Positions 3,297 to 32,451 of a stretch of 33,270 nucleotides of DNA are shown here, in pieces (the first letter of the stretch is position 1; the number at the start of each line of letters is the position of its first letter). This DNA comes from a virus. The notes beneath the pieces were generated by a model that did not search any database, was not told the DNA's origin, and saw nothing but the letters and a program-made list of their open reading frames with translations. The position numbers and the translations under genes are program-made. The stretch spans positions 1 through 33,270 of the IMG/VR virus record IMGVR_UViG_3300038469_000019; one strand, written 5' to 3'.

Positions 3297-4606
3297 TACG
3301 TCAGCACCACCTTTGGATCAATGTAGAAAGTTGAAGACGCCTTGGCGCAGCGAATGTAAACTGTTAGTGGCCCCTTCATGCCTGGGGTAAAGGTTGCAAC
3401 CATCTTGAAGGCTGTGGTTGATCCGCCCCACGACGAAGCATCAGTGTCACAAGCGCCCGTTGCAAGGATGTCGGCATTTCCGCTTGTTGCAATCGAACCT
3501 TGTGGATTGGAGCCAGATCCTAAGTATTCAACATCGATCCATATGTCTTCCTTGTTTGGAACTGCGCCACCGCCCCAGATGCCATAGACCGTGGCCGTAA
3601 CGGAACTTGTAGAGTCGTTCCATATCGATATCGGAATGCAAGTGAACGGGTCTGCCCAGCGACTATTTGCTGTCGTGATGACCTTAAATGCAACCTGCTG
3701 CGTTCCGTCAGTGGCGCCGCCTGTGCGTACAATCGTTGTTTCGGTGGTCTGATCGCCCGCGTAATTATGCTTTTCTGTTCGATAGTTTACGGAACCGCTA
3801 TCGCATCGAATAAGTGTAACTTCTCCCTGCCCAAGACCGCCGGTCTGCGCCGCATTGATAGTGACGCTTGCAGGCAGCCTGCAGTCTTTAATGATGGCAT
3901 TCATTGGAGCACCAAGATTAGGGAAAATCGTCTTGGCTGATAATGCACTAAGATCCACGCCCTCCAACTGTAGAACAACTGGAGTACCGCCAGCGTTGTT
4001 AAATAACGTCGTTGGTAGCGAGCCTGCGGCATCAATCGCTGATGGTGAATTCGTCCATATAAACCTTCCGCGTCCTAAATTAATGGTGTTGCCAACGGCA
4101 CCGAATTTCACGGAGCAATTGTTCCAATAGAGAACTGTCCCTGACGTTCCCATTGCAATAGTGGCGGTAGCCGTACTCAATGTCCGGAACACACAACTAT
4201 CGTACCGTTGCTGATTTCCTGTCGTATTAACGACATTGATGCCACCACCGCCGCCTGCGGCGGCAGAGTTACTTTGAAAAATAATGCCGTAACAATAAAA
4301 GAACCCTTGGAGCGTTATAGCATTAGCGCCGGTCGTGCTGATGGTTGCCGTGGTCCTCAGATCGGCAGATACAGGTGGCACGCTACCCGTATGGATTGCG
4401 CATAGGATTTGATTGGGAGCCGTGACTGTACCTGGCGCCGTTATCGTCATAGCCGAAGCTTGCGTTTCGGCGTGGTCAGCAGCCACCCAGAATACGTCAC
4501 CAGCAGCTTTGGCCGAGCAGGCTGCCGCTAGTGTGGTGTAGGCGTTTGCCCAATCAGCGCCCGTCCCAGCGCCACCAGCGCCCGATCTAACGTATACGTT
4601 TGCCAT
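3296..4606 (-). CDS. putative parallel beta-helix tail protein
   Basis: 436 aa. The N-terminus MANVYVRSGAGGAGTG followed by ADWANAYTTLAAA is a common opening of phage and secreted right-handed beta-helix proteins. The middle is rich in short beta-prone stretches with regular Asn, Thr and Gly (for example near residues 85-180). The C-terminal ~150 residues look like a separate beta domain, possibly carbohydrate-binding. It sits directly before the glycosidase-like tailspike, so receptor binding or spike assembly is likely. No catalytic residues are identified. Confidence 0.6.
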   Translation of the reverse strand: MANVYVRSGAGGAGTGADWANAYTTLAAACSAKAAGDVFWVAADHAETQASAMTITAPGTVTAPNQILCAIHTGSVPPVSADLRTTATISTTGANAITLQGFFYCYGIIFQSNSAAAGGGGGINVVNTTGNQQRYDSCVFRTLSTATATIAMGTSGTVLYWNNCSVKFGAVGNTINLGRGRFIWTNSPSAIDAAGSLPTTLFNNAGGTPVVLQLEGVDLSALSAKTIFPNLGAPMNAIIKDCRLPASVTINAAQTGGLGQGEVTLIRCDSGSVNYRTEKHNYAGDQTTETTIVRTGGATDGTQQVAFKVITTANSRWADPFTCIPISIWNDSTSSVTATVYGIWGGGAVPNKEDIWIDVEYLGSGSNPQGSIATSGNADILATGACDTDASSWGGSTTAFKMVATFTPGMKGPLTVYIRCAKASSTFYIDPKVVLT

Positions 4607-6024: not shown

Positions 6025-6296
6025 TTAGGCCCTGTGATAAAGCCGCGCCCGTGCTGCATGTCGCGGATGTCGCCTTCAATCGCTAACACGCGGGTATCCA
6101 GAACCCTCATTTCGCCGCGCATATCGGCCTGAGCGATCAGGATTTCGCCAAGCTTCTTTAGCTCAGTCTGCATGGCATCGACTTCGCGCTTGATGCTGGC
6201 GACCGTGTTTCTCATGGTCACAAATACGCTGATGCCACCAGCGCCGATGACAACAATCTCGATGATGTTGCCGATTGTGATTGTCTGTTCAATCAT
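6021..6296 (-). CDS. membrane-anchored coiled-coil protein
   Basis: 91 aa from ATG 6296, which overlaps the stop of the 37-aa upstream gene (ATGA); a longer start at 6329 is possible but lies inside that gene. Residues about 7-25 are a membrane segment (NIIEIVVIGAGGISVFV) followed by a long charged helix with heptads (SIKREVDAMQTELKKLGEIL). This Nin-Cout layout resembles inner-membrane spanin or holin-accessory proteins. It is in the lysis cassette, but the specific role is not established. Confidence 0.6.
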   Translation of the reverse strand: MIEQTITIGNIIEIVVIGAGGISVFVTMRNTVASIKREVDAMQTELKKLGEILIAQADMRGEMRVLDTRVLAIEGDIRDMQHGRGFITGPK

Positions 6297-6406
6297 GACG
6301 GCGAATTCCAATCCAAGATGTGGTGCCATCGTTTTACCTGCGGGAGGCTATATTTACGCCCCGTGCTAGTGATCTGGATAACAGGTCGTTTAGATATTTG
6401 TTTCAT
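6293..6406 (-). CDS. very small basic protein
   Basis: 37 aa, found by direct reading. ATG 6406 has a strong GGAAGG about 5 nt upstream, and the stop overlaps the next start (ATGA at 6293-6296). The protein begins MKQISKRPVIQITSTGRKYS and has a Trp/His-containing tail. I recognise no family. The ribosome site and the coupled junction are the main evidence that it is translated; it could be a leader for the next gene. Confidence 0.5.
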   Translation of the reverse strand: MKQISKRPVIQITSTGRKYSLPQVKRWHHILDWNSPS

Positions 6407-6488
6407 AATGCCTTCCAGCCGCCGCGGAGGTTCGTTCTTCGTGGTGGTTAGAGTCGTCGCGACGTTCACAGCGCCGCGGCGGCTCGCT

Positions 6489-6737
6489 TCAAGCGGGCTT
6501 TGCTCTTGCCCTGCACACCCTCACTTGTTCACGCAACTGTTGGTAATCACCGATAAACAACCGAAGCGCTGATCCGGATGGAAGCGCCTTGTATTCTTCT
6601 AACGCCCGCTCCTGCGTTTTGGCGTCATACTCGTTGATGCGCGGACATACGATCTGTACAACGACTTCAGAAGCGCCCGGTTCGCAGGCGCTCAGAAACA
6701 TCATCATCGGTAGGGCGGGCAACGCCATCCATCGCAT
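6489..6737 (-). CDS. outer-membrane spanin lipoprotein (Rz1-like)
   Basis: 82 aa. Short N-terminus, hydrophobic stretch and lipobox FLSAC with Cys 18, so it should be a lipoprotein. It begins inside the inner-membrane spanin gene in another frame (71-bp overlap), the classic Rz/Rz1 arrangement. The mature part carries several cysteines and a helical C-terminus. It would join the inner-membrane spanin across the periplasm and disrupt the outer membrane at lysis. Confidence 0.7.
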   Translation of the reverse strand: MRWMALPALPMMMFLSACEPGASEVVVQIVCPRINEYDAKTQERALEEYKALPSGSALRLFIGDYQQLREQVRVCRARAKPA

Positions 6738-6879
6738 TTTTCGTCTCCAATGTTTCGGCGTTGACTGCAGCCTTGACCTCGTTCCGGCCAGCCTCGCGAT
6801 CTTCCGCGCGCTGTTTCCAGCCGAGAAGATCGCGCAAAAAGCCGACGACGACCGAGATCGTCTTGATGATCGAGAGCAT
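6667..6879 (-). CDS. inner-membrane spanin (Rz-like)
   Basis: 70 aa. A hydrophobic N-terminal segment (residues about 3-20) is followed by a charged helix ending PTDDDVSERLRTGRF, an ending I associate with small Rz-type proteins of alphaproteobacterial phages. The start overlaps the upstream holin-like stop (TGATG). The o-spanin gene starts within it. It is short for an Rz protein, so the pair may be at the lower size limit. Confidence 0.6.
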   Translation of the reverse strand: MLSIIKTISVVVGFLRDLLGWKQRAEDREAGRNEVKAAVNAETLETKNAMDGVARPTDDDVSERLRTGRF

Positions 6880-7061
6880 CAGGACTTCTGTTCGGGGATC
6901 ACGACAGCAAGCAGCCCGCCGATACCCATTCCTACAGCAGAAATGGCCTGCCAGAGTTCCGGCTTCACGGCAAAACCAATGCCCGTGACGAGAGAGCCAA
7001 GACCAATCCAGGTTGACGGCTCTTTGAGGCGAGCAATAAGCATAGAAATAATGCTTCCCAT
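6879..7061 (-). CDS. holin-like small membrane protein
   Basis: 60 aa from ATG 7061, which has GGAG about 7 nt upstream; the much longer upstream ORF is antisense to nothing real and overlaps the endolysin in another frame. Hydrophobic segments lie at about residues 18-32 and 38-55, with a short polar N-terminus and a charged end (PEQKS). It is placed between endolysin and spanins, where a holin is expected. Confidence 0.65.
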   Translation of the reverse strand: MGSIISMLIARLKEPSTWIGLGSLVTGIGFAVKPELWQAISAVGMGIGGLLAVVIPEQKS

Positions 7062-7104
7062 TGTATTCTCCAGTTTGATTGCGCGATGTCGTCGCGCGGC
7101 GTAC

Positions 7105-7635
7105 TTACGCTTCGTTGGTCGAGAGTTTACCGCCAGCAGAAAGCATGATCCTGCGGACATTGGCCGGTTGAACGTTGTAGGCCGGCCGCCTGATGCGATA
7201 GAGCCGATGCTTCGCAATGCGGGTGATGCAAACCTTGTCGCTCTGGTTGCCACCGAGGCAGTGATAGGCCCCCGTATCCTCGCCGACGTACAGCGCAACA
7301 TGCCCGCCGCCGTCGCGCTTGAACGTGAGCACGTCACCGAGCATTGCGCCGCCTTCCGCGGCCTTGCCGAATTCACCCCACGACAGCGCCCATAGCGGGC
7401 TTTTGACGACTTCCTTGCCTGCGCGTTTGGCAACAACGGCCAGAAATAAACCGCACCATGGAATGGAGTCGTGGCTGTAAGTGTCAGACAGCCCGACCTC
7501 CTTGGCCCATGCGAGGATCGTCGGGTTGTCTTTTGCGCCAGCGCCCTCGACAGTTCCGAACAGTTTCAGGGCCTCGACAATCATCTTCGGGCCAGGTTCA
7601 TTGGCCAGCCAAGCGTATTGCGCAGGAAGCGTCAT
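7105..7635 (-). CDS. endolysin, TIGR02594/CHAP-like amidase
   Basis: 176 aa. The sequence matches the TIGR02594 (NlpC/P60-CHAP) pattern: IPWCGLF with catalytic Cys 61, GGGHVALYVG with His 112, and LGGNQSD with Asn 130 as the likely polar residue. The ~30-residue C-terminal tail beyond the core is basic. No signal peptide is visible, so export probably depends on the holin gene that follows. It should cleave host peptidoglycan at lysis. Confidence 0.85.
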   Translation of the reverse strand: MTLPAQYAWLANEPGPKMIVEALKLFGTVEGAGAKDNPTILAWAKEVGLSDTYSHDSIPWCGLFLAVVAKRAGKEVVKSPLWALSWGEFGKAAEGGAMLGDVLTFKRDGGGHVALYVGEDTGAYHCLGGNQSDKVCITRIAKHRLYRIRRPAYNVQPANVRRIMLSAGGKLSTNEA

Positions 7636-15167: not shown

Positions 15168-16861
15168 CAGGTTTCACCGTCAGGCTGGATAAACGGCTCA
15201 ACGCCTGCGCTATAGGTCCATGTCTGGGCTGCTGGAACGCGGATTTTCATCCTCGTGTAGCGCGTGGATCTTCGAAGATCGCAGCTCCCGGTTCGGGTAT
15301 TCTTTGCAATCTCTGGAAGGGACGTTGGCGTGTCCGATAGCGTCTCACGATAGGAAGCCGAGCCATAAACGCTCGGCGCATCTACAACCGGCCGAAAACC
15401 ACCAAGATAAACCCGCTCGTTGCTCGAGCCCTGCTCCGCGGTTTCAAGCGTTGCCTCAAGGCTCGCCCCTGAGAAAAACCCCATCTTGTGCTCGCTGGAA
15501 AATCCGGCAATCAATGGCTGGGTCGATACCGCGAACGAATCCAGCGAGGCCGCGAGATCGTCGATCGACGCTGAAAGATCATCAAGGCTTTCCAGCGTCA
15601 GCCCGGGCTGCGACATGCCCAACAGGTACTCTCCTGACGTCGTGACCGGAAAGAACCTGTCCAGCACGAAATCATAGCCCATGATCTTGTCGAACAAGCC
15701 AGTCGTTCCCGACGTGGATTTGTACGCCCAAAAGCCTCGTGTCGCGCGAGGATCGGCCGCCCCGATCAGCATATGCAATTCGGTCTTGTCCAGATCGTCA
15801 AAGAATGTGCGATCCACACGTTCCCGCCCGATCTGCTCCGGAAGTCCCCCCGGCGCGATCTTGTAAAACCCCTTGGCCGAGTGAAACAGCACCAAGGCGC
15901 CGGCGCGGATGATGCTATAAGGTCCAAACAGGCCGAGCTGTTCCGCGATGCGCTCGATCTGAAAGATCAGCGCAGAACCTGGGATATAGGACATGCGCCG
16001 AATGGCTTGATCCTGAAATACAATCCCGAACTCGCCACCGGCCACGCCGCGGACAATGCCTCCGTCAGGGAAATCCTGAAAGTCCGAAGAATTAACGCCT
16101 GACGTCCATTGCGTCGTGTCGTTCAACCCGGACCAGTGAACACGGAACGGGTTGGATAGCAGTCCGGAAAGCACCAGAAACCGACCGACGACGCTGATAT
16201 ACGAAGCCTGCGGGGGAGACCCTGCGTTATCGGCAAAGGCCGACGATGTTCCCAGCGTATAGGTTTGCAGGACCGCGTTTTTCTGCGTGGCCTTGACGAG
16301 ATTGCCGAACTGCACGAACTGCCAATGCGCGTCGCTCGACAGTTCGGCATATTTCCCCGTAACCGAGTGAGTTCCTGTTCCGGTCGAGGCTGTATTGATC
16401 GCCGCCCCGCCTGGGGTCGCTGAAATCGTATAGGTATCGGCATCCAGAACCGTCTTTACGTAATAGACCGTTCCCGCCGTGATCGCCGCCGGCAACGCAC
16501 CACCGGAGTTCGAAAACACCTTCGGCTCGTTGACCGCGGAATCATGCCCTGTTTCAGTAATAACACCGGGACTGGCCGATGAGATCGTTACCGTGACAGC
16601 CTTGGAAACCGGAATCCACGAATAGTCCGTGTTGTCGGCGCGATAGAGCCGCTTTGACGTGCCGGCAAAGACCGTAACCGAACCGTCCGAGTTCAGGGCG
16701 TAGAACCCGCCACGACAAACCGCTGGTAGCGATTGCGTCAGTGCCGCGAAATCCGGGAACGGCCCGTAGCCGTCGCCGCGAGGCAGCACGTTGTTGATGT
16801 TGCGCGTGGCTGAGCCGAGATAATCGGCTACATCGGGACGAAACTCTCCCCATTGGATCAT
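15167..16861 (-). CDS. tail nozzle / stabilisation protein
   Basis: 564 aa. It has the style of podovirus gp10/nozzle proteins: many short beta strands with repeats such as WQFVQFGNLVKAT, NPFRVHWSGLND, GVAGGEFGIVFQDQAIRRMSY and FGPYSIIRAGALVLFHSAKG, suggesting a beta-propeller. Residues ~88-168 form an inserted beta domain (TISSASPGVITETGHD to GTGTHSVTG) like those scattered through phage tail genes. It follows the adaptor after an HNH gene and precedes the fibres, which supports the call. Confidence 0.7.
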   Translation of the reverse strand: MIQWGEFRPDVADYLGSATRNINNVLPRGDGYGPFPDFAALTQSLPAVCRGGFYALNSDGSVTVFAGTSKRLYRADNTDYSWIPVSKAVTVTISSASPGVITETGHDSAVNEPKVFSNSGGALPAAITAGTVYYVKTVLDADTYTISATPGGAAINTASTGTGTHSVTGKYAELSSDAHWQFVQFGNLVKATQKNAVLQTYTLGTSSAFADNAGSPPQASYISVVGRFLVLSGLLSNPFRVHWSGLNDTTQWTSGVNSSDFQDFPDGGIVRGVAGGEFGIVFQDQAIRRMSYIPGSALIFQIERIAEQLGLFGPYSIIRAGALVLFHSAKGFYKIAPGGLPEQIGRERVDRTFFDDLDKTELHMLIGAADPRATRGFWAYKSTSGTTGLFDKIMGYDFVLDRFFPVTTSGEYLLGMSQPGLTLESLDDLSASIDDLAASLDSFAVSTQPLIAGFSSEHKMGFFSGASLEATLETAEQGSSNERVYLGGFRPVVDAPSVYGSASYRETLSDTPTSLPEIAKNTRTGSCDLRRSTRYTRMKIRVPAAQTWTYSAGVEPFIQPDGET

Positions 16862-17286
16862 ATGATGTCAGCCAAGGCTCTCTCGGCACTCCAGCCGAAT
16901 TTTGTAATCCGTTTCCATGCGCGTTTGTATTCGGTAGACGTCCCATTTCCGCTATTGATAAAAGAACCAAGCGGGGCTGTTCTGCCAAATGCAGTAACAA
17001 TAAAATTTCTACGAGTATTTAGCGCCTGCTCTCTTCGCGTTGCCCAACGGCAATTCCCTGGTTCGTAATTGCCATCATTGTCTTTGCGATCAATGCTATG
17101 CCTATTGCTAGGCCGCGGCCCCATATCTGCGTAAAAATTCTCAAATTTTTGCCACCGTTCGCAAACTGAGATACCTCGCCCGCCGTGTGTTGGATAAGAT
17201 ATCCTTGACGGATCTTCACACCTACGGCGCATCTCTAGCCATGTATTATGCTCCGGAGTGCGGCTCATTCGGTGAGATATCGTCAT
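16858..17286 (-). CDS. HNH-family homing endonuclease
   Basis: 142 aa. The pattern MSRTPEHNTWLEMRRRCEDP, then HGGRGISVCERWQKFENF, then SIDRKDNDGNYEPGNCRWAT is the usual free-standing phage HNH family that recognises and nicks or cuts DNA. H34 and the DRKDNDGN/CRWAT block mark the core. It lies between adaptor and nozzle genes, with a 22-bp gap upstream and ATGA overlap downstream, and is more A+T-rich than its neighbours, so it looks like an insertion. The ORF may lack part of the N-terminus. Confidence 0.8.
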   Translation of the reverse strand: MTISHRMSRTPEHNTWLEMRRRCEDPSRISYPTHGGRGISVCERWQKFENFYADMGPRPSNRHSIDRKDNDGNYEPGNCRWATRREQALNTRRNFIVTAFGRTAPLGSFINSGNGTSTEYKRAWKRITKFGWSAERALADII

Positions 17287-27052: not shown

Positions 27053-27818
27053 TGGCGTTATTTTTTTTGGCAAGACATCGGAAATAGGTTTTGCTCCGGT
27101 ATTCATTTAGCGCAGACTCATATTCCTCGCTCAACCTTTCCCATAGTAAACCCTCTGCTTCGCAAAGTCTTTTGGCTTCCTGATCCAAATCATTCACAGT
27201 CATACCCTCTCTCCTGTTCATCTGACGAGCACCATTCGAGTCCGCACGCGCCGTCCTCTTCCCGTTAGAAAACCCGTAAATCACCGCCATGCAGTCAAGG
27301 CATTCGCGGAACCTGGAACCAAGATACTCTTCCCATTTCTTGCCCTCCAGCCCGCGGATTTCCGCCATTTGCTTCCGGGTTCGCTTCAGGATCAGGACTT
27401 CATGCACGACGGCCGACCCGTTCTTGCCCAGCTCCCGATAGACGATCGTCAATTGCCTTGCAGCGCGCCTCTGGGGCTCGCTGATAGGCTCCGGGATGCG
27501 CCCGCCGTCTACCCACTCCTTGCTCGGATCAATCGCCTGTGGCCCGCGCTCGGCTGTTTCAAAGTCCCTCTGAAAGGCTCGTCCGGCATGGTATTGTGCT
27601 TCGTCTATCATCTTGCGGGAGTGCAGATCACCTAGCGGATCCTCTCGCCTTGAGCGGATCACGGTAATCTTGGCGCCGGGCTCGTACGGGTCGTCAACCT
27701 CCATGGTGGTGAGGTGGTCGCGAAGCCCGATGCTTGTTTCGGTGGCGCGGCGGTCGTGAAGCTTGCCGGGATCGTACGGCTTCCCCTTCCTGCGTCGTGT
27801 GGTGGTCTGTGGGGTCAT
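27039..27818 (-). CDS. DUF6456-type protein, candidate late regulator
   Basis: 259 aa. The centre has the DUF6456 look: DPLGDLHSRKMIDEAQYHAG, then RAIDPSKEWVDGGRIPEP-like text, a helical segment RQLTIVYRELGKNGSAVVHE, and GSRFRECLDCMAVIYGF at the end, which resembles a sigma-like or antiterminator-like DNA-binding region. It is placed just before the terminase region, as lambda Q or RinA/ArpU-type regulators are. The N-terminus is basic. Regulation of late genes is inference from position and shape. Confidence 0.65.
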   Translation of the reverse strand: MTPQTTTRRRKGKPYDPGKLHDRRATETSIGLRDHLTTMEVDDPYEPGAKITVIRSRREDPLGDLHSRKMIDEAQYHAGRAFQRDFETAERGPQAIDPSKEWVDGGRIPEPISEPQRRAARQLTIVYRELGKNGSAVVHEVLILKRTRKQMAEIRGLEGKKWEEYLGSRFRECLDCMAVIYGFSNGKRTARADSNGARQMNRREGMTVNDLDQEAKRLCEAEGLLWERLSEEYESALNEYRSKTYFRCLAKKNNANGAS

Positions 27819-27994
27819 TTCAGCCGTTCCTTCAAATAAAGTAATAGCAAGTGTTGCTGGTTTCGATCCAACGTCACTGATAGGCTGTTCATTCCAGCCT
27901 CAATGTGGATTACGATGCCACCGGCTGGGTCGTGCAGATCGTTCACGCGGGCCGATGTCAGCGAGCCGCGAAGCTTCAGCTCCTTAGCTCCCAT
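27815..27994 (-). CDS. 59-aa hypothetical protein
   Basis: Found by direct reading. ATG 27994 has an ideal ribosome site (AAGGAGGTGA, 3 nt before ATG), and its stop overlaps the DUF6456 start (ATGA). It begins MGAKELKLRGSLTSARVNDL, contains GGIVIHIEAGMNSLSVTLD, and ends in a Leu-rich helix. No family known. The very strong translation signal suggests it also sets translation of the next gene. Confidence 0.7.
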   Translation of the reverse strand: MGAKELKLRGSLTSARVNDLHDPAGGIVIHIEAGMNSLSVTLDRNQQHLLLLYLKERLK

Positions 27995-28029
27995 GTTTCA
28001 CCTCCTTGCCACCAATTCTACCATCTTGC

Positions 28030-28305
28030 TCATTTCAGGGCCTCGTCGATCATGGAGCTGTAGATGCGGCGTACTTCCTTGTCTGCAAACTGCCCTGTGT
28101 TGTAGCATCGCGCTAAAGGGTTATTTATCATTGCTTCGGTAGGTTCGCGCATAGCATCGATTACGGTACGAGAATCTTCAGAGAATATATGCCAATTAGC
28201 ATCTACGTTCCCAACGACAATTGCATCATCCTCAGGGCGACCAAACCGGTTGACATAATGCTTAGTTGCCAGCGCCCTTGCTCCACGCTCAATCATCTCG
28301 CTCAT
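28030..28305 (-). CDS. hypothetical protein common in alphaproteobacterial phages
   Basis: 91 aa. The opening MSEMIERGARALATKHYVNR and the REPTEAMINNP segment are of a small protein type seen often in such phages. Function is unknown. It lies in the middle block of tiny genes between the RHH switch and the DUF6456 gene. Confidence 0.6.
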   Translation of the reverse strand: MSEMIERGARALATKHYVNRFGRPEDDAIVVGNVDANWHIFSEDSRTVIDAMREPTEAMINNPLARCYNTGQFADKEVRRIYSSMIDEALK

Positions 28306-28320
28306 GTTCGTTCCTTATCG

Positions 28321-28506
28321 TTAGTCTATGGGATCGTTAATCGTTAATCCGCCGAACCCCATTGGACATCGCTGTCGCGAGCAGACATACCCATAGGCAT
28401 GACCATACTCGAATTTCTGCCCGCACTCGCCGCACTGCGAGCCTCGTTTCAGCTCTGGCAGTGGCTTTACAAAATCGTAATTTGGATCAGGCTTAATCTC
28501 GCTCAT
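28321..28506 (-). CDS. small zinc-ribbon-like protein
   Basis: 61 aa from ATG 28506, with AGGAG close upstream and an ATGA overlap with the upstream stop. Two cysteine pairs, CGECG and CSRQRC, suggest a zinc knuckle. The rest is Pro/Asp-rich. A nucleic-acid or protein contact role is plausible but unproven. Confidence 0.55.
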   Translation of the reverse strand: MSEIKPDPNYDFVKPLPELKRGSQCGECGQKFEYGHAYGYVCSRQRCPMGFGGLTINDPID

Positions 28507-28685
28507 GTCGTCTCCTTCAAATGCCAGCATGAATCGCTGATGTCATAAACATACAAAGCTTCATCAGGGATTACGCCTCGGTTATAGTCGTCTTCGGTGA
28601 TGACCTTCGGATAACGGCGAGCTGATAGGTCTACTCGCCTGTACGGGTTGCGGTTGTCGATCGGTTCGGCTGAGGGGTCGATCAT
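28503..28685 (-). CDS. hypothetical small acidic protein
   Basis: 60 aa with PSAEPIDNRNPYRRVDLSAR and VITEDDYNRGVIPDEALYVY. ATG 28685 lies 13 bp after the previous gene. No family. Coupled by ATGA to the zinc-ribbon gene. It may be a moron or a host-takeover protein, but this is only a guess. Confidence 0.5.
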   Translation of the reverse strand: MIDPSAEPIDNRNPYRRVDLSARRYPKVITEDDYNRGVIPDEALYVYDISDSCWHLKETT

Positions 28686-28698
28686 TGGTGATCCTTCG

Positions 28699-28971
28699 TC
28701 ATGTCCGGGCCTTGCGGCACTGGTCCAGCATTTCCTGCAAGCGCTCGCGGGTCCGGTATTCAGGCGCTATTGTTAGCCAGTCTTCAATCGCTTCGCCTTC
28801 CGTTTCGTACTTGTAGACGGCATTACAAATGGCGGCCTCAAATCGCCTAATCATCTCTGCCTTAGCGGCGGCGCCCCGCTCGGTGCAAGGCTCCCAATAG
28901 ATAAGCCCTTTGTCGATGGCCTCCCTCAGTAGGGAGGCCATGGATGCCCCTTTAGACATTTTGCGTTCCAT
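28699..28971 (-). CDS. hypothetical protein with internal hairpin
   Basis: 90 aa; starts at ATG 28971, 28959 or 28941 are possible. The helical body includes AEMIRRFEAAICNAVYKYET. A perfect 11-bp hairpin (28916-28941) covers codons 11-19 and the third possible start, so translation may be RNA-controlled. It overlaps the upstream gene by 20 bp. Function unknown. Confidence 0.55.
   Translation of the reverse strand: MERKMSKGASMASLLREAIDKGLIYWEPCTERGAAAKAEMIRRFEAAICNAVYKYETEGEAIEDWLTIAPEYRTRERLQEMLDQCRKART
28916..28941 (-). promoter_or_regulatory. perfect 11-bp hairpin near a start codon
   Basis: ATGGCCTCCCT and AGGGAGGCCAT pair perfectly around a 4-nt loop. In the minus-strand RNA the 5' arm contains an AUG that could be an alternative start of the 90-aa gene; the 3' arm contains AGGGAGG, a ribosome-site-like sequence. 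It is inside the coding region. Confidence 0.45.
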
Positions 28972-29137
28972 ACTTCGCTTGCTTGGCGGCGGCCTCTACA
29001 GCGGCCTCCCAAGTCTTGAACCCACCGCGCTTGCCAAGGTGAACGGCGCGTTCCATCGTTCGCGTCACGAAAACAACGTAGCTGAATGCGCTGGTGGTTT
29101 CGGTGTGGTGATAAACGGTGAAGGGGCCAATCTGCAT
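28952..29137 (-). CDS. hypothetical protein, first gene of the middle block
   Basis: 61 aa. ATG 29137 has GGAG about 8 nt upstream and lies about 24 nt after the predicted start of the divergent promoter. It contains FVTRTMERAVHLGKRGGFKT and an Ala-rich helix. Family unknown. It is the first leftward gene controlled by the operator region and would be a marker for the switch. Confidence 0.6.
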   Translation of the reverse strand: MQIGPFTVYHHTETTSAFSYVVFVTRTMERAVHLGKRGGFKTWEAAVEAAAKQAKYGTQNV

Positions 29138-29153
29138 TTGCTTGCTCCGTTGC

Positions 29154-29182
29154 TTGACTGTGAGAGCAATATGTCATATGAC
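29154..29182 (+). promoter_or_regulatory. rightward promoter for the RHH gene
   Basis: TTGACT at 29154-29159 and TATGAC at 29177-29182 are 17 bp apart, a good sigma-70 type promoter. The -10 box lies inside the first TCATATGA palindrome, which would place repressor binding over the promoter. Confidence 0.6.
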
Positions 29183-29196
29183 TTATCCATCGTCAA
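29168..29196 (-). promoter_or_regulatory. leftward promoter for the middle block
   Basis: Read leftward, TTGACG (29196-29191), 17 bp, then CATATT (29173-29168). It overlaps the rightward promoter and the first palindrome, so the two promoters should compete or be repressed together. Confidence 0.55.
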
Positions 29197-29209
29197 TACC
29201 TCATATGAG
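29173..29209. promoter_or_regulatory. paired TCATATGA operator palindromes
   Basis: GTCATATGAC (29173-29182) and CTCATATGAG (29200-29209) are perfect 10-bp palindromes with centres 27 bp apart. They flank the start of the ribbon-helix-helix gene transcript and overlap both promoters. I infer binding by the adjacent RHH protein. Confidence 0.6.
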
Positions 29210-29219
29210 AAAAAGTGCG

Positions 29220-29378
29220 ATGGGACGTAAAAAACTTTGGGTCGAGGATATGCAGGCCCGCTTCCCCGAGGGGACATTCGAGCGGATAGACGCCGTGCGC
29301 GAGGACGGCGAAGACCGGACGGATTTTGTCCGGGATGCTGTCGAGAAGGAGCTAAGGCGTCGCGAGCGGCGGTCATGA
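29220..29378 (+). CDS. ribbon-helix-helix (CopG-like) regulator
   Basis: 52 aa from ATG 29220; an ATG at 29205 is in frame but inside the second palindrome. MQARFPEGTFERIDAVRED forms the beta strand and first helix and DRTDFVRDAVEKELRRRE the second helix, the standard RHH DNA-binding fold. Its gene is the only clear rightward regulator in the window and is divergent from the middle block. It likely represses itself and the leftward promoter. The stop overlaps the convergent 97-aa gene by 6 bp. Confidence 0.75.
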   Translation: MGRKKLWVEDMQARFPEGTFERIDAVREDGEDRTDFVRDAVEKELRRRERRS

Positions 29379-29666
29379 TGAACCCTTGTTCATCTGGCGG
29401 ACACCAGAAGAGTCCGTTTCCTTCATCTTTCCGCCCAGCGTGTGGGTGGCGTAGTATTCCGCTAGTTCTTCTTTCGTCGGTGCAGGCTTTGGCTTTCTCT
29501 CGGGACGGTCGAGGGAGGTTAGGCCCCAGTTGTTGGCACTGCATGGGGTATCAGCCCCGCCAACTGCCGGCTCACGCTTGGGCAGACGCTCAGCTTGCTG
29601 AGACGCACCTGCGGGCGGGGCTGATTTCTGCGGCTTCACGCTGCCGTCTGATGGATCGCGGATCAT
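29373..29666 (-). CDS. hypothetical protein with M-RDP-DGSVK opening
   Basis: 97 aa, Pro/Lys-rich and low complexity, possibly disordered. It opens MIRDPSDGSVK, shared with the next upstream gene, and ends DSSGVRQMNKGSS, shared with part of the DUF6456 protein. ATGA overlaps the upstream stop. No function known. Confidence 0.55.
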   Translation of the reverse strand: MIRDPSDGSVKPQKSAPPAGASQQAERLPKREPAVGGADTPCSANNWGLTSLDRPERKPKPAPTKEELAEYYATHTLGGKMKETDSSGVRQMNKGSS

Positions 29667-29926
29667 TTAGCATACCCAAGTCGTGTCATGACCTCGCGCG
29701 CTTTCTTTTCCCAAGCATCAAGATCCATGTCATACTGTTGCTGCACCCAAAGAGCCGGCGTACCGCAGCGCGTACCTTCTGGAAAAATTCGCCCCATGCC
29801 AGCTTGCAAGGCGCGCTCAATTTGAGCGTCTAGCAACTTTGCACGGGCGCATAAATCAAGCCCCTCAGAAAGGACCTCCGCAAGTTCATCAGCTTTCACG
29901 CTGCCGTCGCCGGGGTCGCGCGTCAT
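29663..29926 (-). CDS. hypothetical protein with M-RDP-DGSVK opening
   Basis: 87 aa. It opens MTRDPGDGSVKADELAEVLS and has helical text LLDAQIERALQAGMG and a Trp/Tyr-containing part. It shares its first 11 residues with the next gene. It lies 3 bp after the 64-aa gene. Function unknown. Confidence 0.6.
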   Translation of the reverse strand: MTRDPGDGSVKADELAEVLSEGLDLCARAKLLDAQIERALQAGMGRIFPEGTRCGTPALWVQQQYDMDLDAWEKKAREVMTRLGYAK

Positions 29927-29929
29927 GGT

Positions 29930-30124
29930 TCAATACCAACGCTCATCGCTAGCCGATCGGTCAAACATCTCTACGAGAGCCAGTCTCTGTTCAATGGTGA
30001 AAGTCGGCCACAGCCGGCGGATTTCTTCGGTGGCGTAATTTCTCCAATCATGTACTTTGGTGGCGCTTCTCCACTCGGGATTTAGCGCCTGTTCTCGCAG
30101 ATAATCATGCAGATCGATGCTCAT
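29930..30124 (-). CDS. hypothetical helical protein
   Basis: 64 aa with MSIDLHDYLREQALNPEW and a helix RLALVEMFDRSASDERWY. ATGA overlaps the upstream stop. Function unknown; part of the replication-side operon. Confidence 0.55.
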   Translation of the reverse strand: MSIDLHDYLREQALNPEWRSATKVHDWRNYATEEIRRLWPTFTIEQRLALVEMFDRSASDERWY

Positions 30125-30339
30125 TCACTCCTCCCATGTGTGACGCCAGCGAGGGCATCCGGACCATCTCGAAGCGTCAGTTCCCTCTTGAGCTTCAGGA
30201 CAGCAAAGATAAAATCATCGGCGTCCCAATCGCCTTGGACCAGCCAATCTGTAGTGCCAAGCTGATCAAGATTTAGACCATCCTCGAAAAAGGCGATCAG
30301 ATCCCTGATCACGTCATCCTTGCCTGGTTTTTCGCTCAC
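30121..30339 (-). CDS. hypothetical acidic protein
   Basis: 72 aa, acidic and aromatic: DLIAFFEDGLNLDQLGTTDW and GDWDADDFIFAVLKLKREL. ATGA overlaps both neighbours. The acidic surface could mimic DNA, but this is only a thought. Function unknown. Confidence 0.55.
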   Translation of the reverse strand: MSEKPGKDDVIRDLIAFFEDGLNLDQLGTTDWLVQGDWDADDFIFAVLKLKRELTLRDGPDALAGVTHGRSE

Positions 30340-31935: not shown

Positions 31936-32451
31936 CTAGCCACGGCTGAATTCTCCGAAATATTTGACTGATGCAACCATTCTTGCCTCAGCCGCCTCTT
32001 CTAACGTTGGGAAACACCCTAGTTCGATCTTTCCACCGCCAGGACCAAATGGATAAATACGAGCGCGATAGCTACCGCTAGGCAAAAGGCCGACGCCCTT
32101 AATCCCAGTGCTGGAACGTGGCTTACTATTCATTTGATTTTGCGAGGGCGTCGCTAGCCGCAGGTTGCTGAGAGCGTTGTTGCAACGATTTCCATCTATG
32201 TGGTCAATTGAAAACTTTTGGTCATCGTACCAACCATTGCAGTAAATCCATGCGAGCCTATGCGCTCCGAACGCTCCAAATGGAGCTAGTTTGATGCGGA
32301 CATAACCAGTCCCGCTATCAAGGTGTCCTGCTGGCATTCCAACGAATGAAGAATTGCCTGGACTAACCCAAGTAAACAGGCCTGCGTCTGCTTCGTACTT
32401 GAGCTTGCTTCGTATGAATTCTTGCGACGGCTGTTGTGTTTTTACCTTCAT
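31936..32451 (-). CDS. HNH endonuclease with AP2-like C-terminal domain
   Basis: 171 aa. HNH core: AHRLAWIYCNGW (His 64), SIDHIDGNRCNN (Asp 83, His 84) and ALSNLRLATPSQNQMNSK. The C-terminal TGIKGVGLLPSGSYRARIYP to LEEAAEARMVASVKYFGEFS is an AP2-like DNA-binding segment. ATG 32451 has AAGGA upstream. It overlaps the 89-aa gene by 89 bp, and the region is A+T-richer than its surroundings, consistent with a homing-type insertion. Confidence 0.85.
   Translation of the reverse strand: MKVKTQQPSQEFIRSKLKYEADAGLFTWVSPGNSSFVGMPAGHLDSGTGYVRIKLAPFGAFGAHRLAWIYCNGWYDDQKFSIDHIDGNRCNNALSNLRLATPSQNQMNSKPRSSTGIKGVGLLPSGSYRARIYPFGPGGGKIELGCFPTLEEAAEARMVASVKYFGEFSRG

Follow-up and report, generated by a model that had tools for sequence, protein, structure and literature searches.

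The window analysed here, a 33,270-bp virus record that encodes an SU10-type portal and a Terminase_3 protein, carries a small rightward gene (29220..29378, + strand) among leftward ones, with a convergent gene downstream of it. Its 52-residue product, MGRKKLWVEDMQARFPEGTFERIDAVREDGEDRTDFVRDAVEKELRRRERRS, matches the NCBIfam profile NF041551 (YlcI/YnfO) with 35.2 bits, above the curated cut-off of 30, as do 39 of 41 relatives. Substitutions in the gene relative to 12 relatives number 49/58/258 by codon position, a pattern indicating that it is a real gene under purifying selection. We place its start codon at the ATG at 29220 rather than at an in-frame ATG at 29205, inside the second of two upstream palindromes, because the latter is out of frame in two relatives (L085 and L086). 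Assignment of the protein to the RHH type is supported, with the predicted fold resting on profile matches and an AlphaFold2 model (pLDDT 89.5) in which an extended segment is followed by helices 19-26 and 33-51. This is the order of N-terminal strand and two helices expected of an RHH protein; the model is of a monomer, so the strand is unpaired in it. Pfam RHH_1 matched one family member (E 0.0023), PDB sequence hits were not significant (AmrZ, E 0.28; CopG-family, E 0.83), and Foldseek and VIA-align comparisons with the PDB returned nothing useful, the domain being too small to be informative.

Two predicted operators precede the gene: O1 (GTCATATGAC, 29173..29182) and O2 (CTCATATGAG, 29200..29209), both perfect over 10 bp, with starts 27 bp apart. 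A sequence-only reading of this DNA had described two such palindromes with the gene of a 52-residue RHH protein adjoining, and both elements stand as described. Nowhere else in the window do two identical exact 8-bp palindromes lie within 40 bp of each other; order-1 Markov sequences of equal length contain 0.2 such pairs on average. No operators besides O1 and O2 were found in the window. Because a spacing of 27 bp does not correspond to whole turns of the helix, dimers bound at the two sites would not share one face of the DNA. A third TCATATGA, at 16858-16865, lies at an ATGA stop/start overlap of two leftward ORFs and is coding sequence, not an operator.

The palindromes overlap a pair of predicted divergent sigma70-like promoters, each with a 17-bp spacer, as the same reading had proposed. 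The leftward promoter (29168..29196, − strand), which came from a scan, has −35 TTGACG (29196-29191) and −10 CATATT (29173-29168); the rightward promoter of the RHH gene (29154..29182, + strand), which came from a targeted search, has −35 TTGACT (29154-29159) and −10 TATGAC (29177-29182). O1 is located in the leftward spacer and covers the rightward −10; O2 lies within the RHH gene's 5′ leader, 3 bp upstream of the leftward −35. The operators thus overlap the promoter of the gene itself, as is expected of an autorepressor. Promoter-like matches occur at chance level (3 found in 9.3 kb, 5.2 expected from shuffles), so the weight of these two comes from conservation; the rightward-promoter arrangement is the same in L122-L124, L129-L132 and L139.

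Conserved operator layout across the family

In protein and alignment scans, viral contigs yielded 79 distinct loci and bacterial genomes (Sphingobium, Sphingomonas, Azospirillum, Methylobacterium and Hyphomicrobiales) another 6; further members are present in Caulobacter phage DMCA and Sinorhizobium phage StopSmel. These roughly 85 relatives belong mainly to Alphaproteobacteria phages and prophages; of 296 genomes from the order to which Sphingobium belongs, 9 have a member. At 70% of 86 loci, the region ahead of the gene contains an exact 8-bp palindrome that recurs there with no more than one mismatch, compared with 5% of 4300 control windows drawn from the same loci, which answers favourably the earlier suggestion to look for palindromes at the same place in related phages. 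Three or more copies are present in 38% of the 86 upstream regions and in 0.7% of control windows. At 49 of 73 loci the TTGAC of the divergent promoter lies within 10 bp of an operator; the frequency of GTCAA in random 10-bp windows is 0.5%. The arrangement of RHH-type protein, divergent promoters and operators, which we call the cassette, recurs in dozens of related phages and prophages, in keeping with the view that it forms one compact regulatory unit.

Across the family the sites fall into two layouts. In class A, to which the window belongs, sites lie near −46 and −19 from the start codon, with an additional site at about −60 in some loci. In class B, four sites lie near −101, −83, −58 and −23 (for example, in L117, L177, L180 and L182). 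An operator beside the divergent-promoter TTGAC is seen in both. Many class B loci have TTGAC or TTGGC at −36 together with the operator at −23. With this geometry transcription would begin at the start codon or immediately beside it, which suggests that the message of these loci is leaderless, its promoter covered by the last operator. Some RHH homologues, for example those of L146, L175, L176 and L188, lie within other gene arrangements and have no such upstream palindromes. L186 and L211 have repeated TGGTATCA, asymmetric operators within an otherwise palindromic family. One record, G005, carries two cassettes about 4.8 kb apart (L086 168-326 and 5001-5168, equivalent to G005 25983 and 30816) with the same operator and the same three-operator layout, and an integrase gene (L086 2486-3829, − strand) lies between them.

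Operator class tracks the N-terminal arm

The operator class tracks residues 1-15 of the protein, which comprise the N-terminal arm and the predicted DNA-contacting strand. Proteins with the strand EDM[QV]ARF and W7 accompany CTCATATGAG, and those with IN.EQ[TM]PARF accompany TGATATCA. MARPKxY is paired with AGATATCT, [EKR][FY]P[ED]K with GCATATGC, ILLPL or YLAKF with GTATATAC, K.T[VL][VI]R[LF] with CGATATCG, KSTN[VI]R with CGGYRCCG and ENINL[TP]L with ATGTACAT. By mutual information, the residues most informative about operator class are 10, 7 and 12, followed by 34; these peaks would agree with an antiparallel strand pair of a dimer contacting the major groove.

Shared ancestry contributes to all co-variation and prediction figures given here and cannot be fully removed; with that qualification, the partial Mantel correlation was 0.49 for residues 1-15 given residues 16-48 and 0.16 in the reverse direction. 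Leave-one-out assignment by nearest neighbour, restricted to relatives below 80% identity, recovered the operator class for 67 of 72 proteins from residues 1-15 and for 47 of 72 from residues 16-48. Once relatives above 60% identity were excluded, 21 assignments were right from residues 1-15 and 1 from the rest. A portion of the operators was called by eye, but the result does not depend on these: automatic calls alone gave 61/64 and 50/64 at the 80% exclusion, and 16 and 1 at the 60% exclusion.

The pairing also extends to 11 prophage loci that were found later and left out of class definition: 8 of the 11 contain two or more copies of the predicted operator, compared with 0-4% of control windows. 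L212 and L213, two of the three misses, resemble L195: in all three proteins the strand is preceded by an insertion of two residues (INDPxEKVTARF), and all three loci have upstream of the gene repeated non-palindromic TGGTGGCA instead, a class of its own that was noticed afterwards. The remaining miss, L217, has CGCCACCG-like repeats. That the palindromes arose by chance beside an unrelated small gene, a reading for which the chance-level promoter matches might speak, is strongly disfavoured by this held-out prediction together with the enrichment and positional conservation of the palindromes, and we consider it extremely improbable.

Variable neighbours and separate lysogeny genes

In nine phage records that contain the RHH gene at 58-86% identity, no relatives could be detected of the proteins encoded around the cassette (27815-30339), which places the cassette in an accessory region. 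The surrounding ORFs include a 61-residue leftward ORF (28952..29137, − strand), presumed to be the first gene of the divergent promoter, and further small leftward ORFs (27815..28971, − strand), each lacking homologues in those nine records. A near-identity search with 13 kb of the window gave no match in the phage collection, and an Rfam search returned nothing. The cassette was found in 0 of 80 terminase relatives within the fetched flanks, and hence its position is not conserved. The window also holds two HNH-type ORFs, named from sequence only (16858-17286 and 31936-32451), which may be homing endonucleases and have relatives in other phages that carry the RHH gene.

The genes to the left of the cassette are for the most part unrelated between phages, leaving no target operon that is conserved; of the first leftward ORFs at 61 loci, 42 are singletons, an approximate figure because ORFs were picked mechanically. 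Families that recur within 5 kb leftward are integrases, DNA methyltransferases and HNH endonucleases, and those on the other side are the recombination genes YqaJ, Rad52, ERF and RecT. In Caulobacter phage DMCA (L091), a 6-carboxytetrahydropterin synthase gene lies leftward of the cassette, possibly serving 7-deazaguanine DNA modification, and a transposase gene lies directly 3′ of the RHH gene (L091 coordinates 3973-4269 and 6181-7500). Reviews describe small RHH autorepressors as common antitoxins, and the protein could in principle be the antitoxin of a toxin-antitoxin pair that autoregulates through the operators. A type II pair would have a conserved, co-operonic toxin partner, whereas here no neighbour is conserved, the leftward ORF is usually a singleton and the downstream gene is convergent. 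The protein, moreover, ends directly after the RHH helices, without a toxin-binding tail. We regard an antitoxin role as very unlikely.

The sequence-only reading had also raised a minimal lysis/lysogeny unit, which is not supported. No integrase, S24 or HTH_3 repressor gene was found in the window, an absence to be read with the fact that the record is linear and may be a fragment. Relatives do carry integrase (PF00589) in 32 of 43 records, sometimes less than 1 kb from the RHH gene (G010, G015 and G042), and operator specificity diversifies as do the operators of immunity repressors, so that the RHH protein might silence the prophage and the fast-changing operators mark immunity groups. However, 32 of 43 records also have HTH_3 genes and 11 of 43 have S24 peptidase domains, often as a divergent CI/Cro-like pair away from the cassette (in G005, 38041-38199(−) and 38359-38523(+)). 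The cassette is accordingly not the sole candidate master regulator of these temperate phages, as a CI/Cro-type switch would be, nor the obvious lysogeny switch. The two operators at the cassette are the only ones in the window, and G005 has two cassettes with the same operator. Taken together, a lysogeny repressor seems improbable to us.

A proposed autorepressor cassette

The gene, its candidate operators, the geometry and conservation of the promoters and the co-variation of operator and protein can all be read in the DNA. They are best explained, in our judgement, by a self-contained autorepressor cassette that probably shuts both its own promoter and the divergent promoter of variable accessory genes. 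We infer from this pattern DNA binding, repression, the timing of a transcription pulse and the function of the leftward genes. An RHH dimer of the 52-residue protein would read the 10-bp palindrome with its N-terminal arm and β-strand. Bound to O1, the dimer would cover the leftward spacer together with the −10 of the RHH gene's promoter; on O2, it would sit beside the leftward −35, within the leader of the RHH gene. As the protein accumulated, both promoters would close. The leftward promoter would thereby give an early, post-entry pulse of transcription of adjacent phage-specific small genes and then be held low, and the RHH protein would keep its own level steady.

O2 could instead have an activating role. 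Its centre is about 43 bp ahead of the predicted leftward start, at a distance that activators use, and AvtR, an RHH protein of an archaeal virus, acts both as an activator and as a repressor (PMC5569661). O1 would then repress the RHH gene's own promoter while O2 activated the leftward one, a true early-to-middle switch. Against this, O1 sits in the spacer of that same leftward promoter, and in class B loci a third site falls at the predicted leftward start, where it fits repression; we therefore consider dual regulation unlikely.

The autorepressor cassette looks like a promoter unit placed ahead of variable accessory genes, in the way that Aca proteins control anti-CRISPR operons. Aca proteins are small autorepressors that bind inverted repeats over −35/−10 elements and limit an early, variable accessory operon (PMC8434428, PMC11065993), and the cassette would by analogy work likewise on its variable neighbours. 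Aca2 is an HTH protein encoded within the anti-CRISPR operon that it represses, whereas here an RHH protein is transcribed away from the target operon, and no anti-CRISPR gene was identified. We tentatively suggest a broader reading, which we hold to be possible rather than probable: the cassette would be mobile and widespread in Alphaproteobacteria and would govern phage accessory (anti-defence) genes much as Aca proteins do, and the family would be a natural RHH recognition code in which residues 2, 7, 10, 12 and 14 set an 8-10 bp operator. If so, W7/Q12 would specify CTCATATGAG, N7/P12 TGATATCA and MARPKxY AGATATCT; N12 in place of V12 would change CGATATCG to CGGYRCCG; and orthogonal repressor/operator pairs would be readable from sequence.

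Relation to known systems

Other small viral RHH proteins, among them Arc and Mnt of the P22 immunity region, likewise act as repressors of neighbouring promoters and of their own. Among archaeal viruses, this has been described for SvtR, AvtR and F55 (PMC5569661). In contrast to all of these, the present boxes are isolated 10-bp elements with a spacing of 18-35 bp, different phages have different target genes, and specificity has diversified across the family. Our search of the literature on YlcI, YnfO, DUF3950, phage DMCA and RHH phage regulators found no description of the system or its operators, nor a large natural RHH series whose proteins and operators vary in concert and can be matched from their sequences. 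RHH autorepressors as such are known; this family, the divergent cassette layout and the diversified operator series we did not find described.

With about 8-10 operator classes, each matched by proteins only about 52 residues long, the family makes an RHH recognition code directly testable and provides candidate orthogonal repressor/operator pairs for alphaproteobacterial hosts. Genes leftward of the cassettes, mostly small ORFs with DNA methyltransferases nearby, are candidate early counter-defence genes. The proposal would also give the YlcI/YnfO family a first hypothesis. By the NCBI cut-off, ylcI of the Escherichia coli prophage DLP12 and ynfO of Qin (NF041551, DUF3950) belong to the same sequence family and are likewise phage or prophage genes; the K-12 members (ynfO, L200 6757-6990; ylcI, L201 8252-8446) are also divergent from a neighbouring phage gene, nohA and nohD, respectively. 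Their proteins differ in having another N-terminal arm and strand, MSTKNRTRRTTTRNIRF, and longer tails. Reading the upstream regions of ylcI and ynfO by eye, we noticed no repeated short palindrome; a GATAATNATTATC element upstream resembles a Fur box.
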